Below, one piece after another: positions 22,738-46,279 of a DNA stretch of 64,000 nt. This DNA is from an uncultured Chthonomonas sp. Its GTDB lineage: Bacteria > Armatimonadota > Chthonomonadetes > Chthonomonadales > Chthonomonadaceae. A model generated the notes under the pieces. The model ran no database searches and had not been told where the DNA came from. It saw nothing but the letters and a program-made list of their open reading frames with translations. Both the position numbers and the translations under genes were made by a program. The stretch spans positions 1 through 64,000 of the forward strand of contig CAIONQ010000020.1 of the NCBI GenBank assembly GCA_903859705.1. The letters are read 5' to 3'. The stretch's first letter is position 1. Each line of letters opens with the position of its first letter.

Positions 22738-22902
22738 TGAATATCCGGGCACAGTATCAACTGCATTATTGGACGCCGAACGGGCGTACGATGTTGCCAA
22801 ATATGGTGTTAGAGCGTGTGAACGCGGCACCAGAGAGGGTTACAGAGAGCGTGCTACAATATTACCAGATGTGTACCTGCGGTTTTGGAGGCACTTAAGA
22901 GC

Positions 22903-24339
22903 GTGATAGACAATCTGTTGCACAATGGCTCATGGAAAAGAACGCGAACGGAGAGACTGCTGAGGTGCGCGCTGGGAATTGCGGGGGTCGCGGCATCATC
23001 TCTCTCCGGTTGTGGCGGCGGCAATGGCGGCCAGAGCCCTACTCCTACAACAGGCCGCGCGGCCTGTGCAGTTAATACACCCCACAACGATGGCCGTCCG
23101 CGGTGGACAGTGCTAGTTTACATGAATGCGGCTAACAATCTGCAACCCTTCAGCCTTTTGAACATTGCGCAAATGGCCAGTATTGGATCTGACAGTAATG
23201 TGAACATTGTAGTGCAATGGAAACAGGCCGCTCAGAGCCAGATAACGGATTGTTTCAGTTGCGTCCCCTCATTTGTTGGCACACGCAGGTACTTAATAAA
23301 GGCCCACGACACCTCCAGTTTGTGCAAGAACATAGATGATTCCAACAGCTGTTCCGCTGCAGAACCTCTGGTGCTTGCATCCGACCGTTTGCCAGACCCA
23401 TCCACAAACGCCACGGACCCAGTAACCCATGCATCCACTTCAGATATGGGCGATTACCATGTGCTGGCAAATTTTGTGCAGTGGGGAATGAGCGCCTACC
23501 CGGCAGATAACTATGCACTTGTAGTGTGGGATCACGGCTCTGGCTGGCGACCAGTGTACCGCAGTGCTGCGCGAAAGCTACCTGGACGCGCCGTTTCGCA
23601 GGATGAACAGAGCGGAAACGAAATAGAAACTCAGGAGATTTCGGCCGCCCTTACATCCCTTCCGCATAGCCTGGATTTGCTGGTGTTTGATTGCTCACTG
23701 GAAGGCATGGCAGAGGTTGCCTACGAAGTGCGGAACCGGGCACGCGTAATGGTATGCTCGGAAGAGAGCCCACCCGGAGCGGGTTATCCCTACCACAGAT
23801 GGCTTGCAGCACTTAAAGCTGGGGCAACCAACCCCTGTGCCCTTGGGCAGAGCATAGCGCAAACCTTTGCAGACTACTACCCAACAGCGGGCAATGTAAC
23901 ACAATCTGTAATCGATCTCAGTAAGCTTGCCGGTGTTGCTGGCAGGCTCAACACACTGGGTTCTGCACTGTATGCCGATAGAAATGTGGAATCAAGCCTG
24001 CTTCAATCTGCGAGAAACAGCAGCAACGTTCAGAGCTATGGTTTGGCGGAATCTGCGCTCTATGCCGGGTTTATCGACCTGTACGGCTATGCAGACAATT
24101 TAAAAAAGGGCACAGGCAATGCGGGCGTTGCTGCGGCGGCAACAGCCCTTCAAACCTCGCTAACCGATCCCACCACGGGGGCCGTGCTGTTCAATGTGTA
24201 TGGGCAGGGTAAGGCAGGTTCTCACGGGCTTTCAGTTTATGTGCCCGCTCCCGCAACCTATTTGCCATCATACGATGCCCTGAGCATAGCTGGCGCATCT
24301 CCAGCATGGCCACAGTTCTTAAAATCGCAGACAAAATAG
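22903..24339 (+). CDS. Clostripain family (peptidase C11) lipoprotein
   Basis: About 478 residues. GTG 22903 is taken as start, with GGAGG 11 nt upstream; an in-frame TTG at 22885 overlaps that site. A basic stretch and hydrophobic core lead to lipobox LSGC (C37), then a glycine-rich linker. The C11 core is clear: WTVLVYMNAANNLQPF, NYALVVWDHGSGW with the catalytic histidine (H211), and LDLLVFDCSLEGM with the catalytic cysteine (C264), followed by CSEESPPGAGYPY. Clostripain-like proteases cut after basic residues, usually as self-processed secreted enzymes. This one appears tethered to a membrane as a lipoprotein. It ends 4 nt from a convergent lipoprotein gene. Confidence 0.85.
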   Translation: MIDNLLHNGSWKRTRTERLLRCALGIAGVAASSLSGCGGGNGGQSPTPTTGRAACAVNTPHNDGRPRWTVLVYMNAANNLQPFSLLNIAQMASIGSDSNVNIVVQWKQAAQSQITDCFSCVPSFVGTRRYLIKAHDTSSLCKNIDDSNSCSAAEPLVLASDRLPDPSTNATDPVTHASTSDMGDYHVLANFVQWGMSAYPADNYALVVWDHGSGWRPVYRSAARKLPGRAVSQDEQSGNEIETQEISAALTSLPHSLDLLVFDCSLEGMAEVAYEVRNRARVMVCSEESPPGAGYPYHRWLAALKAGATNPCALGQSIAQTFADYYPTAGNVTQSVIDLSKLAGVAGRLNTLGSALYADRNVESSLLQSARNSSNVQSYGLAESALYAGFIDLYGYADNLKKGTGNAGVAAAATALQTSLTDPTTGAVLFNVYGQGKAGSHGLSVYVPAPATYLPSYDALSIAGASPAWPQFLKSQTK

Positions 24340-33154: not shown

Positions 33155-34648
33155 TTACGTATTTAGTAGGTCCTCAGCAAACAGCCGCTTTGCAAGTTCG
33201 GTATGCAGCATGCCGTCCGGATCGCACCGGCGCTTCATGCGTGCAAATTCCCGAATTGTGTCTTCCCCAAGATAGGCCCGGGCCGATACCGGATCAAGAG
33301 TGCTATCCTTCGCGAAATAGAATCTACCACCTGCTCTCAGCGCGATATCAGTTAATTCGCGAGTAAGCGCATGCAGCCGTTGGCGGTTACGGGCGGTAAT
33401 TGCAAAATCCAGTGCAAAAGAGTAGCCATTCACGCCGTGTGTCATCAGGAAGGAGTCTTTTTTGTGCCGTTTGAACACGCCAAGATACGGTACGATTCCG
33501 GCTCGGTGGCAAGCTTCTATCTGAGAAGTGAAGCACTTTTCAGCGGTTTCGGCAGGCACAAAACTCTGAAACTGCAGAAAGCCATGCGGCTTGTACACCC
33601 ATTTCCAATTAGGAACATAATCTAGCAAGAAGGCAAACCCTGCATGGGATTGACGCACTGTTTTTCGGTTTCCAATAGTTGCGCTGGACCAGTATTTTGC
33701 CCAGTTTACCAGGCGCATACCTGCGTTATTGGTAAAAGGCTTGAGGAAACGCCATACAATAGATTTCGGCAGTAAGCCCAGAATGGTATCTGGCAGTTCC
33801 TGATTTTCGACCCTGAGAGATTGCTGAGGGTTAGGATCATCCGCGATATGCAGGTACTTTGCCTCATGCACAGCCCCACGCCCCAGCATTGCGCCTGTGG
33901 CAAAACAATCTATCCAACCAACCAGGTAATCGGCCCTATCCATCCGGGCTTCAAACTCACGAATGATCTCTGCAAAGTTACGTGTTGAGAATGCATACAC
34001 CGAAAGGTGGCCACTCTCTACATGCTTCATCTGAATCCTGATTCGCGTGAAACAGCCCAGCATACCAAAACCGCCTATTGCGGCATGGAAAATATCCGGA
34101 TTCACTTCTCGGCTGCAGGTAAGCAGTTCTCCCGTGGGGGTAACAAGATCGAAATCCAACACATGGTTGCCTATGGGCCCGGCCTGGAAGTTGTTCTTGC
34201 CATGGTAGTTCATGCCCAGGGCTCCGCCCATTGTAACAAACATGGTACCGCTAACAACAGGCGGCCACCAGCCATCCCCAACGCAATACTGCCATAACTG
34301 CCTTAACGTAACACCTGGCTCAATTTCTATGATTCCGCTCTGTGGGTCCCAGCTTAAAACGCGGTTCATACGTGTAAGATCCAGGCAAATCTGCTCACAA
34401 TTTAGCGAGGCATCTCCATAGCTTCGGCCCGCGCCGCGCAGGCCCACTTTGCGGCCGGTTGCACGTGCCTTTGCAAATACCTGGTGAATGCCAGCAACGG
34501 TAGACGGTCGCCACACGTAGGACATGGCGTGAAGATTCATGCCAAACGAATCCACGCGTTCCAGGTTGGCAGCCGGCAACGGATGGAAACCAGCGGACTT
34601 ATCTATTTGGGCTTCGGTGGGGGCAGTAACCGCCGACACATCTTCCAT
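33155..34648 (-). CDS. dprE1: DprE1-like FAD-dependent oxidoreductase
   Basis: A 497-residue flavoenzyme of the vanillyl-alcohol-oxidase fold. The FAD part shows GLRGAGRSYGDASLN, NYHGKNNFQAGPIGNHV with H149 at the place of the covalent-FAD histidine in mycobacterial DprE1, and IGGFGMLG. The C-terminal part has GYSFALDFAI and GGRFYFAKDS, where K447 matches the catalytic lysine. DprE1 oxidises decaprenylphosphoryl ribose as the first half of its epimerisation to arabinose. Alanine 412 stands where mycobacteria have the benzothiazinone-target cysteine 387. ATG 34648 is chosen, with GAGG 8 nt upstream overlapping the stop of the SDR gene. A sugar-lactone oxidase is the alternative. Confidence 0.75.
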   Translation of the reverse strand: MEDVSAVTAPTEAQIDKSAGFHPLPAANLERVDSFGMNLHAMSYVWRPSTVAGIHQVFAKARATGRKVGLRGAGRSYGDASLNCEQICLDLTRMNRVLSWDPQSGIIEIEPGVTLRQLWQYCVGDGWWPPVVSGTMFVTMGGALGMNYHGKNNFQAGPIGNHVLDFDLVTPTGELLTCSREVNPDIFHAAIGGFGMLGCFTRIRIQMKHVESGHLSVYAFSTRNFAEIIREFEARMDRADYLVGWIDCFATGAMLGRGAVHEAKYLHIADDPNPQQSLRVENQELPDTILGLLPKSIVWRFLKPFTNNAGMRLVNWAKYWSSATIGNRKTVRQSHAGFAFLLDYVPNWKWVYKPHGFLQFQSFVPAETAEKCFTSQIEACHRAGIVPYLGVFKRHKKDSFLMTHGVNGYSFALDFAITARNRQRLHALTRELTDIALRAGGRFYFAKDSTLDPVSARAYLGEDTIREFARMKRRCDPDGMLHTELAKRLFAEDLLNT

Positions 34649-34658
34649 CGGGGGCACC

Positions 34659-35405
34659 TCAGAAATTCAACTTACGGAAAATAAAGGAGGGGATGGCGCG
34701 GATGATAGCCATGATTGGCCGCCATTTCCAGGGCACATACACCACACGTTTACTGGCCGCTGCCGCCTTAAGAATGGTATCTGCGGCCGTTTCGGCACTT
34801 ATGAGCAGAGGCTTCTTGGCAACATCCTTTGTCATTGGGGTATCTACCGGTCCGGGCTTGACCGTTACTACCGATGCCCCGGTGCGTGCGATGCGGTTCC
34901 GCAACGATTCCAGATAGGCATCCAGAAACGACTTGGAAGCGCCATAAACCGGAAAGCCGCGCCTGCCGCGATCTCCAGCCACCGAGGAGATACCAACGAT
35001 AGTGCCAGCCCCCTCTCGGCCAAAACGCTGTGCGGCCTGATTAAGCCATGCAACCGCACCCATGCAGTTAACTTCTACGGTGAGTAGATCTTTATCCAGG
35101 CTGTACTCATCGGGCTCAATCAACGGCATAACGCCTGCTGCATAAACCATCAGGTCTAAGCCTTCCATGTGTGCGGTTATCTGCTGAAACAGTGCTTCAA
35201 CTGCCTGATAATCTCGCACATCATGAGGGAACACCAGCGCCTTGCCACCCGCTGCGGCGATTTCTCCTTTTAGACGGGCAAGCTCATCTGCACGGCGTGC
35301 TACCAGCGCAACAGTTGCGCCTTCGCGGCAAAGTTGGCGCGCAATGGCTTCCCCCATACCGGAGGAGGCACCAACAACAATGCATCTTTTGAACGGAAGC
35401 GGCAT
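34659..35405 (-). CDS. dprE2: DprE2-like short-chain dehydrogenase/reductase
   Basis: A 248-residue SDR. The nucleotide-binding motif is VVGASSGMGEAIA, the catalytic serine lies in VGISSVAGDRGRRGF, and YGASKSF supplies Tyr-x-x-x-Lys. The C-terminus (VVYVPWKWRPIMAIIRAIPSFIFRKL) resembles mycobacterial DprE2 closely, including the final FRKL. DprE2 reduces the keto-sugar made by DprE1 to decaprenylphosphoryl arabinose with NADH. It lies directly upstream of the DprE1-like gene on the same strand, with a stop that runs into the next ribosome site, so the two are coupled. A generic SDR with another substrate cannot be ruled out from sequence alone. Confidence 0.75.
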   Translation of the reverse strand: MPLPFKRCIVVGASSGMGEAIARQLCREGATVALVARRADELARLKGEIAAAGGKALVFPHDVRDYQAVEALFQQITAHMEGLDLMVYAAGVMPLIEPDEYSLDKDLLTVEVNCMGAVAWLNQAAQRFGREGAGTIVGISSVAGDRGRRGFPVYGASKSFLDAYLESLRNRIARTGASVVTVKPGPVDTPMTKDVAKKPLLISAETAADTILKAAAASKRVVYVPWKWRPIMAIIRAIPSFIFRKLNF

Positions 35406-35609: not shown

Positions 35610-36311
35610 GTGAAAACTATTTATCTGCCGACGCAACCGGCACCAACTCGCAGCCACAAAACACCTGACAGAGCGTTTACCCTTATAGAGCTGCTTGTAG
35701 TAATTGCGATTATCTCAATTCTTGCTGCGTTGATCTTTCCCGTATTCGCCTCCGCACGTGGGAAGGCAAGGCAGATATCCTGTGTATCTAACCTGCGCCA
35801 GCTTGGCATGAGCATAAGCATGTATGTTCAGGATTACGACGGCCTGTACCCTTACATGGTGGATCCTGCAGACAAGTACACCCCTCAGATTTGGGACCAG
35901 TTTCCGGAGTTTATGGCTCAGGTGCCTAATATTGGGTTGGTGAATGAGGTATTGCAGCCGTATACAAAATCTAAAGAGCTATTTCATTGCCCCGGCGATA
36001 CCGGTTTTGATAGAGAAGATTTTACTGGCCTGGAGATAGACCCGGCAGGCAATCCATCAAACGCATACCCCAGCAGTTTTGCCAAGTTCGGCACCAGTTA
36101 CTACTACCGAACAGAAATCACCCTGAAAAATTCGGCAGAGTCCTCATTTAATACACCTGCGAGTGTAAACACCTTATTTGATGGCGCAGGTGCGTGGCAC
36201 GGTACCGGCTTTATCAACCAGACCTGGAAGTACAACGTGCTGTTTGCAGATGGGCATGCAAAGCTCCAAACGTTTGATCAACTGCAGCAAGAGTGGGCGC
36301 AGCCACTGTAA
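35610..36311 (+). CDS. DUF1559-type pseudopilin-like protein (copy 2)
   Basis: A 233-residue protein. GTG 35610 is preceded by AGAGGA. After about 22 residues comes FTLIELLVV, a hydrophobic helix and [11 protein letters not shown], then CVSNLRQLG and a YVQDYDG block. The C-terminal family motif is [11 protein letters not shown]. As with the other copies, the protein should be processed by a prepilin peptidase and inserted in the inner membrane or a pseudopilus-like fibre. It is the shortest of the three copies. The role of the family is not known. Confidence 0.85.
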
Positions 36312-43732: not shown

Positions 43733-46105
43733 CTATTTGTGGGAGATATGGAACCGAACCACACGAACAGACCATGCCGGGCAGCGGAGCAAGTAACGTG
43801 CACCCGATACGGTTTCGGCGCTGAATACTGGCCGAATCCGCTCTGGTTCATCAAAACTGTTTGCAGCATCTGGTTCCCCTGCATTGCGAGTATCTGCCAG
43901 CAGCCAGGTATCAACTGTTTTGCTCAATTTGTACACCGAGAGATCCAGAGGGCGATTCACGGCAAGCCCACTGCTGTTTACTGCAAATACCGTCAGGGTT
44001 TTACCATCGGCGGAAAGGGTTGCGCTAATATCCGGAAGCAAATCCGGGGGCAATTCTGATGTGAGTTTTAGCGGTATGGTTCCGGCAAGCGTGCTGTAAA
44101 GCTGCTGCAGGTAGTAGGTTGGCGTTTTGAACAGGCGAAACCTATCCGTTTGTATAATGCCGGAGCAGAAGCTGTTTGTAAGATTAGACCGGTTAGCAAT
44201 CTCAACCAGATCGGAATTTCTGTGCATCAGGTTATGGTAGCGGGCGCAGTACAGAGCGTTCTCCAGGGTCCAGAGCATTGCGCGTCCAGGGCCCGCATCC
44301 CCTGCGGTGGTATTCCACTCGGTTACTGCCACCTTAATATTACGGCCATGCGAGTGCTCTTTGACCATTGCCCGCACAGCGTTCAGCTCGGCAGCCGTTC
44401 CACTGAGGTCCGCCACATCATACTGATGTGGGCATGTGTAATCCAGATAGCCGGAACCGCTTTCGATAACACCTGCGGTTGGGAAACTGGAGAGAATTTT
44501 TATCGTAGGATCTGTGGCACGCATCGCCTGGCAAAATGCAGCCAGACCACTTTCGTATGCTTCACCAGCACGCTCATTACCTACCTGCCAGTACTTTACA
44601 TGGTAAGGAGCGGGATGCCCGTTTCGTGCCCTTAGCCCACCCATGACGCTATTTATCGGGCCGTTGAAGTACTCAACCTCTGCCGCGGCCTCTGCTGGCG
44701 TACTGTGCTCAAACCGAATGCAGATTAACGGTTCGGCATGCACGATTCCGCAAAGCTGAATAATCTCTTCCAGCCCCGCAGCCGCTGGCTGGACTCCACC
44801 CCATGCCGAAAAAGGCATCCGCTTATCGGAATCTCCAACAGCATCTCTCCACTTAAAGTCGCCAAGATTTGCATCGTCGAGCGTGCTGCCACCATAGCGG
44901 ATAATGCCCGGCTTTAGCTCCACAAGCGCCTTCACCACATCGGCCCGCCAGCCCTTGACATTATCAGATGGCATCAGCGACGCATTATCCAACCACAGTG
45001 AGCCCGGCCCGCGAAACTGTATCGATAAAACACAGTCTTGAGCCGTGCGGGCGGGATTGAGCACAGCAGTAAGTGGCTTCCAGCTGGCTTCTGAGTGCAT
45101 AACTGCGCTTGCAATCTGCTCGCCACGCCAGGTTAGGGTTACCTTCACCTCACCGTTAAACCCTGCGTGCTTCATAAAGCATCGGAAACGGCAAGGAATT
45201 CCCTGCTGCACGGTGATTCCTGCCTGGGCAATCCCCACGGTACAGGGAGCACCAGGCTTACCTGTTATTCTCTTCGAAACCTTGCCACTAATCTTTGTGG
45301 TGGCATCGGCAGCAAACTCGCCCCTATTGGTTGCTCCCATGGGATACCAGGGCTTCTCTTGAAAATCCGTTTCTTTAAGGTAAACAAACTTGTAAGGTGT
45401 AAGCCCTTCAAAGCTGCCATCGTACAGCTTTTCGGCCCACATCCCCGGTACAAGCGTACACAGATGCTCGATAAACTGGCCATATTGAAATGGGTTGATG
45501 GGCTGAGAGTGGATCGGCTGCGGAAGCACACGCACAACGGGAAGAGGAGCAGAAGTGGGCACCGCCTCCAGCTTAATGGCATCGAACCACACGGTACCGG
45601 TGCCTTTGCCAAAGCCTGTATAGAAAGCGCAAATGCGCACGCGGCCATCTGCCGGGCTTGTAAACGGCAAACGAATCTGCTGCCAATCCGCGGTGCCCGT
45701 ATGGCTCTCACCGGCGGCAATAATGCCGGTACCGCGCGGGCGCTGCACCTGAAAAGTGCCCGCTACTGGCGCGCCATGTGGGTTCAGATGATCGGTACGC
45801 ACCCAGCCAGACAGGGTATATAGCCTGTTTGGCAGCAGTGATAACTCCTGCCCAATAGCTGTATCCGATGGCTCTGAACTTGCAATTCTAACCGAGGCGC
45901 TGCCTTCGTGGTGAATAGCAATGTCTCGCATGATTTCGGGATTTGCACCGTATACTGAAACTTCCCACCCCTCTGCAGCCTGATCTTGCTCAAACCCGGC
46001 ATTCTGCAGGGCAGCAGTTTGAGCCATGGATATGGCAGGTAAGAGAAACAGTGCCGCAGTGAGTGCAATGGCAGCAGCAATCTGTTGAAATCGGTGGCAA
46101 TTCAT
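43733..46105 (-). CDS. Secreted GH51 alpha-L-arabinofuranosidase
   Basis: A 790-residue enzyme. ATG 46105 opens a signal peptide (HRFQQIAAAIALTAALFLLPAIS, cleavage near MAQ) with AGGAG upstream; an in-frame ATG 156 nt earlier would bury it. Residues about 35-180 are a CBM4/9-like sandwich. The catalytic region starts with NPFQYGQFIEHLCTLVPGMWAEKLYDGSFE and has E511 in WQVGNE (acid/base) and E596 in VAVTEW (nucleophile), as in GH51. It would remove arabinose side groups from arabinoxylan or arabinan outside the cell. It adds to the carbohydrate-active genes at 8497 and 16187. Confidence 0.88.
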   Translation of the reverse strand: MNCHRFQQIAAAIALTAALFLLPAISMAQTAALQNAGFEQDQAAEGWEVSVYGANPEIMRDIAIHHEGSASVRIASSEPSDTAIGQELSLLPNRLYTLSGWVRTDHLNPHGAPVAGTFQVQRPRGTGIIAAGESHTGTADWQQIRLPFTSPADGRVRICAFYTGFGKGTGTVWFDAIKLEAVPTSAPLPVVRVLPQPIHSQPINPFQYGQFIEHLCTLVPGMWAEKLYDGSFEGLTPYKFVYLKETDFQEKPWYPMGATNRGEFAADATTKISGKVSKRITGKPGAPCTVGIAQAGITVQQGIPCRFRCFMKHAGFNGEVKVTLTWRGEQIASAVMHSEASWKPLTAVLNPARTAQDCVLSIQFRGPGSLWLDNASLMPSDNVKGWRADVVKALVELKPGIIRYGGSTLDDANLGDFKWRDAVGDSDKRMPFSAWGGVQPAAAGLEEIIQLCGIVHAEPLICIRFEHSTPAEAAAEVEYFNGPINSVMGGLRARNGHPAPYHVKYWQVGNERAGEAYESGLAAFCQAMRATDPTIKILSSFPTAGVIESGSGYLDYTCPHQYDVADLSGTAAELNAVRAMVKEHSHGRNIKVAVTEWNTTAGDAGPGRAMLWTLENALYCARYHNLMHRNSDLVEIANRSNLTNSFCSGIIQTDRFRLFKTPTYYLQQLYSTLAGTIPLKLTSELPPDLLPDISATLSADGKTLTVFAVNSSGLAVNRPLDLSVYKLSKTVDTWLLADTRNAGEPDAANSFDEPERIRPVFSAETVSGARYLLRCPAWSVRVVRFHISHK

Positions 46106-46279
46106 CGTAAGAATCACTCCTGGTTCGCACGGGAAACGAGAACGGTGCACAACTCGGTATTCCGGCCACTTCCACAGTGCGAGGAGGGGTTCCTGCGCTG
46201 CCAGGATTGCTGGTTGATATGATAAACTGAAATATGGACCAGGATTATGAGCCCGCAGCATGAGGGGAAAGCATTAGCG

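Follow-up and report, generated by a model that had tools for sequence, protein, structure and literature searches.

A DprE2–DprE1-type gene pair from an uncultured Chthonomonas sp. belongs to a separate branch of the family and probably serves a lipid-linked arabinose route

The gene pair and its neighbors

The window, by which we mean the whole 64,000-nucleotide stretch of DNA that was analyzed, lies on contig C20 of a 6.24 Mb assembly (179 contigs) of an uncultured Chthonomonas sp. Two of its minus-strand genes, spaced by a single base, encode a DprE2-type protein followed by a DprE1-type protein, an order that we abbreviate to E2-E1. A preliminary description of this DNA had placed both reading frames at the positions and on the strand given below, which we verified, and had likened their products to DprE2 and DprE1; our sequence, fold, and tree searches likewise placed both with the mycobacterial enzymes. 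The features discussed here are as follows (Mtb, Mycobacterium tuberculosis).

33155..34657, minus strand: predicted DprE1-type FAD-dependent polyprenyl-phosphoryl-ribose 2′-oxidase of the E2-E1-order branch, 500 amino acids from a GTG start
33308..33310, minus strand: Lys450, equivalent to the catalytic Lys418 of Mtb, invariant in the alignment
33413..33415, minus strand: Ala415, aligned with Mtb Cys387, the benzothiazinone target
33464..33466, minus strand: His398, at the position of Mtb Phe369 and characteristic of the E2-E1 branch
34202..34204, minus strand: His152, equivalent to the FAD-linking His132 of Mtb, invariant in 132 aligned homologues
34659..35405, minus strand: DprE2-type short-chain reductase (SDR), 248 amino acids
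34668..34679, minus strand: C-terminal FRKL of the DprE2-type protein, aligned with ...SIFRKL of Mtb
35610-36311, plus strand: prepilin/DUF1559-type protein (family search), divergent from the DprE2-type gene

The DprE1-type reading frame has an alternative start, an ATG at codon 4, from which the protein would be 497 residues long. The residues H149, A412, and K447 named in the preliminary description are present and are numbered from that ATG; counted from the GTG they become H152, A415, and K450, the counterparts in the alignment of Mtb H132, C387, and K418. The FRKL motif that it had reported at the end of the DprE2-type protein occupies residues 243–246. The closest named records containing a relative of the FAD protein are Chthonomonas and Chthonomonadaceae MAGs (Armatimonadota), at no more than 70% identity.

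Elsewhere in the window, a large protein with an alpha-L-arabinofuranosidase C-terminal domain and a CBM_4_9 domain is encoded at 43736-46261 (minus strand), and a clostripain-family (C11) cysteine peptidase at 22885-24336 (plus strand). Nearby glycan-active genes had initially been offered as support for pentose chemistry. The clearest of these is the arabinofuranosidase-type gene, whose product would act on L-arabinose, the other enantiomer, and is therefore not evidence for D-arabinose chemistry.

Relationship to DprE1 and DprE2

Among NCBIfam models, the best match of the FAD protein was NF053785 (DprE1) at 271 bits (E = 1.7e-80), and the second was sugar 1,4-lactone oxidase at 72 bits. 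The DprE1 score falls short of the equivalog cut-off of 500 bits; the classic Armatimonadota and proteobacterial forms of DprE1, described below, scored 417–485 bits against the same model. Pfam recognized a FAD_binding_4 domain alone. A phmmer search of the PDB returned mycobacterial DprE1 at 1e-52; the second-best family was cytokinin dehydrogenase at 5e-15. When an AlphaFold model of the protein (pLDDT 90.9) was compared with the PDB using Foldseek, the best 49 matches were all DprE1. Both searches thus gave matches to DprE1 that are far above chance.

For comparison at the residue level, we chose positions that we take, from DprE1 structures, to line the active site of the Mtb enzyme. Mtb numbering was derived from the M. 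smegmatis sequence through the equivalence of Cys394 with Cys387 (PMC3206020). The equivalents of Y60, H132, K134, W230, L317, Q334, Q336, L363, V365, K367, and K418 are all retained in the window protein, and this set is invariant or nearly so across the 132 homologues. By its key residues and by its nearest solved structures, the protein is a member of the DprE1 superfamily. The fold, the FAD-linking histidine, the catalytic lysine, and the equivalents of Q334/Q336 and K367 are common to the window pair and mycobacterial DprE1/DprE2 (Rv3790/Rv3791). In contrast, the window protein is only about 30% identical to mycobacterial DprE1, and has alanine for Cys387 and histidine for Phe369.

The partner SDR, in which Pfam found an adh_short-type domain alone, matched PRK07102 best (212 bits, under the cut-off of 267) and the DprE2 equivalog NF053786 at 149 bits (cut-off 250, also not reached). 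PRK07102, an uncharacterized SDR family, is the top model for the DprE2 partners of classic non-actinobacterial clusters as well and, because of this, probably represents the DprE2 of non-actinobacteria, although the window SDR itself stays under its cut-off. Mtb DprE2 aligns over the entire length of the window SDR, including the C-terminal FRKL. Residues S141, R146, R148, Y154, K158, and P239 are common to both branches of the family and to Mtb (R146 and R148 being invariant), so that the S-Y-K set (S141-Y154-K158), the RxR loop, and the FRKL end of mycobacterial DprE2 all recur; C-terminal ends of the type F-K/R-K/R-L/M occur in both branches. Tree inference placed the window SDR together with Mtb DprE2, and a split with 100% SH-aLRT support set the two apart from 2JAH and 14 SDRs of the window genome. 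By this placement the protein belongs to DprE2 at the superfamily level.

The preliminary description had singled out the alanine at the position of the benzothiazinone-reactive cysteine. If Mtb Cys387 is taken as a DprE1 trait, the window protein lacks it, but so does every non-actinobacterial homologue in our alignment: alanine occupies position 415 in 132 of 132 (114 of the E2-E1 type and 18 classic). The cysteine is kept in actinobacteria, among which M. avium has alanine and M. aurum serine (PMC3206020). Since all 132 homologues and M. avium carry alanine, alanine is the ordinary state, and the cysteine is not a defining DprE1 residue outside actinobacteria. Actinobacteria thus seem to have added the benzothiazinone cysteine to a family that otherwise bears alanine, a point of use when the spectrum of such drugs is judged. 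Judging from the alignment, His398 is more distinctive than Ala415. The position of Mtb Phe369 is histidine in 112 of the 114 E2-E1-type sequences, and F, M, L, C, or S in the 18 classic ones. Similarly, Mtb N385 is replaced by serine in the window protein (Ser413) and in nearly all E2-E1 members. These two replacements alter the substrate or inhibitor pocket, and the substrate of the E2-E1 branch could therefore differ.

Two branches, gene order, and linkage

In the DprE1 tree, which was built quickly and has a single distant outgroup, a classic clade with the gene order E1-E2 stood apart from an E2-E1-order group that contains the window protein. The classic clade holds M. smegmatis DprE1, proteobacterial and cyanobacterial forms, and some from Armatimonadota and Planctomycetota; the E2-E1 form is about 30% identical to classic DprE1. 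The E2-E1 group, whose members are mostly MAGs with taxon labels that can be wrong, spans Armatimonadota, Chloroflexota, Planctomycetota, Myxococcota, Acidobacteriota, Sumerlaeota, and others; it may be either one clade or the stem that gave rise to the classic clade. In one record, titled as a Bifidobacterium breve MAG (L132) and probably a mislabeled bin, the DprE1 is of the E2-E1 type and clusters with those of proteobacteria and myxococci.

Gene order tracks branch in every locus showing both genes. Types were assigned by similarity, and in counts that are uncorrected for relatedness, about 99 of 251 Armatimonadota genomes have the E2-E1 type, 22 the classic type, and none both; among 195 Planctomycetota genomes the figures are 35, 22, and none. 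The absence of any sampled genome with both types is as expected if the two do the same job. In the literature, of which our coverage is incomplete, we did not find this E2-E1 branch described, and it is the branch that looks new.

DprE2 adjoins DprE1 in 40 of 40 loci from Armatimonadota. In four genomes of the same family (L064-L067), DprE2, DprE1, and DPPR synthase genes lie in a row, with one-base overlaps in L066, and many loci of a second family (f14, probably Fimbriimonadaceae) have the order DPPR synthase-E2-E1. The synthase gene was inside the fetched stretch in 35 of 137 loci, some of which are duplicates of one genome. Apart from the synthase, no third gene was conserved around the pair across phyla in many loci; a few neighbors recur weakly.

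A DPPR-synthase-like UbiA protein is present in nearly all Armatimonadota genomes, about half of which have no DprE1, and co-occurrence in this phylum therefore says little. In other phyla, the synthase was found at E ≤ 1e-45 in 46 of 50 E2-E1-type genomes. For the 195 Planctomycetota genomes, it was detected in 26/35 with the E2-E1 type, 15/22 with the classic type, and 36/138 with neither (E2-E1 versus neither, Fisher 2e-7, not corrected for phylogeny); in the other 9 of the 35 it was absent at 1e-40. Where a genome has the synthase but lacks a DprE pair, the lipid-linked product may be ribofuranose alone.

A lipid-linked arabinose pathway and its alternatives

The preliminary description had called for a search for a UbiA homologue, the lack of which was to speak against the pathway. 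The genome, which we searched one protein family at a time, encodes four UbiA-family proteins, and one of these, on a different contig from the pair (G000:C144:62129-63052), is over the cut-offs of both NCBIfam decaprenyl-phosphate phosphoribosyltransferase models (NF008977, 253 bits, cut-off 234; NF008978, 242 bits, cut-off 207). Sites were located by constant offsets from the published numbering of mycobacterial Rv3806c (PMC10994848); of the PRPP-site residues that we compared, R22, K28, Y70, N73, D77, K87, R90, Y138, and K143 are all retained, and F takes the place of Y157, as it does in some mycobacteria (PMC10994848). By our reading of the open reading frames, the synthase gene sits in a nucleotide-sugar (dTDP-sugar) cluster, between galE-, rmlA-, rmlC-, rmlB-, and cytidylyltransferase-like genes on one side and an rmlD-like gene on the other, the cytidylyltransferase-like gene being named by family search and the rest by eye.

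With both a DPPR synthase and the DprE1/DprE2-type pair encoded, the genome likely specifies a route to polyprenyl-phosphoryl-arabinose. Homology, fold, conserved catalytic residues, and gene coupling point the same way, and we conclude with considerable confidence that the pair carries out the two-step epimerization in a polyprenyl-phosphate pentose pathway, yielding polyprenyl-phosphoryl-D-arabinofuranose. The organism carries, and probably uses, the same enzyme pair with which tuberculosis bacteria convert lipid-linked ribose to the lipid-linked arabinose of cell-wall synthesis. In the proposed scheme, the DPPR synthase would transfer 5-phosphoribose from PRPP to polyprenyl phosphate, and a putative phosphatase would remove the 5-phosphate. 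The DprE1-type flavoenzyme would then oxidize the lipid-linked ribofuranose at C2, the DprE2-type SDR would reduce the ketone to the arabino epimer, and a putative flippase and GT-C transferase would deliver D-Araf to an envelope glycan or glycoprotein. Counting against the pathway are the scores of both proteins below the NCBIfam equivalog cut-offs, the two pocket replacements, the location of the synthase on a separate contig, the nine Planctomycetota genomes with the pair in which it was absent at 1e-40, and the negative search for an Emb-type domain described next.

The genome encodes two PAP2 proteins that might serve the phosphatase step and one GtrA protein that might serve as flippase; no pathway gene was visible near the latter, or around the one PAP2 gene whose neighborhood was read. 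A family search of the genome found no Emb-type arabinosyltransferase domain (PF04602), a difference from mycobacteria, as is the gene order, which is E1-E2 in mycobacteria. On contig C144, a 601-residue multi-spanning membrane protein without a Pfam match is encoded between carA- and carB-like genes (L009 4455-6260, minus strand), and could be a GT-C glycosyltransferase.

Such a route in a diderm had been called unexpected. However, PRPP-dependent lipid-pentose pathways have been described in Gram-negatives, with DprE1/DprE2 homologues in candidate systems for Araf-containing glycans, and for arabinofuranose glycans and pili of Gram-negatives, routes through DprE1/DprE2 have been reported or predicted (PMC11127046). 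In addition, we found UbiA-GtrA-DprE1-DprE2 clusters to be common on proteobacterial plasmids, namely those of the alphaproteobacteria Rhizobium, Azospirillum, Tateyamaria, and Paracoccus. The pathway is thus already known outside actinobacteria. The three-component pentofuranose systems of Gram-negatives and the pilin D-Araf pathway of Pseudomonas aeruginosa likewise combine a PRPP-dependent UbiA-type synthase with DprE1/DprE2 homologues (PMC11127046 and references therein). The three-component clusters join synthase, flippase, epimerase, and GT-C genes, whereas the window pair stands alone with its synthase on another contig. The plasmid clusters (L080, L081, L082, and L194) have the same enzyme set as the window genome, but belong to the classic E1-E2 branch with a linked GtrA gene, and the UbiA protein of L080, unlike the window genome's synthase, matches the longer PRK08238 model.

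We weighed several other explanations. A generic sugar-lactone or alditol oxidase beside an unrelated SDR might be read from the Pfam domains alone and from the weak matches to lactone oxidase models. The search and tree comparison against such enzymes, as called for in the preliminary description, nevertheless grouped the pair with DprE1/DprE2: the DprE1 model outscores lactone oxidase by 271 to 72 bits, a very long branch separates the FAD protein from the genome's own GULO-like protein, the best folds are all DprE1, the SDR stands with DprE2 apart from the genome's other SDRs, and the pair is kept across phyla. NCBIfam scores, both trees, and the fold search rule this explanation out, unless tree and fold should both mislead, and we give it almost no credence. 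The adjoining prepilin-type gene, also present beside the pair in a locus of the same genus (L060), prompted the idea that type IV pilins or pseudopilins are arabinosylated, as in P. aeruginosa. That genus keeps the entire neighborhood, and not the prepilin gene alone, and in the other family members examined no prepilin gene lies beside the pair. Moreover, pseudopilins of this kind are usually numerous in Armatimonadota; we rejected the adjoining gene as grounds for this idea, which seems very improbable.

It is somewhat less improbable, though still unlikely, that the E2-E1 proteins are oxidoreductases of polyprenyl-phospho-sugars, related to DprE1/DprE2, that act on a different substrate or yield a different product (a hexose, some other pentose, or a 2-keto product) and do not make arabinose. 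The separateness of the branch, its low identity to classic DprE1, the nearly fixed histidine and serine in the pocket, the sub-cut-off scores, and the pair-bearing genomes in which no DPPR synthase was detected would all fit this reading. Against it, the DprE1 core (Y60, H132, K134, W230, L317, Q334, Q336, K367, and K418) is retained in full, the pair adjoins and co-occurs with DPPR synthase, and the two branch types do not meet in any sampled genome. We prefer epimerization of lipid-linked ribose to arabinose as the function of the pair.

Envelope D-arabinofuranose is usually associated with mycobacteria and a few Gram-negative decorations, and we found no literature report of arabinose in the envelope of Armatimonadota. 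More tentatively, and with rather less conviction than for the epimerase itself, we suggest that the DprE2-DprE1 pairs with E2-E1 order and histidine at the Phe369 position form an ancient lineage of their own. In Armatimonadota, Chloroflexota, Planctomycetota, Myxococcota, and further diderm phyla, this lineage may provide arabinose (or an epimer) in lipid-linked form for an undescribed envelope glycan containing D-arabinofuranose. Cultured relatives, e.g. Fimbriimonas or Chthonomonas, could be examined for D-Araf if they have the pair. A conserved epimerase branch together with a PRPP-dependent synthase predicts D-Araf glycans in many, mostly uncultured, phyla.
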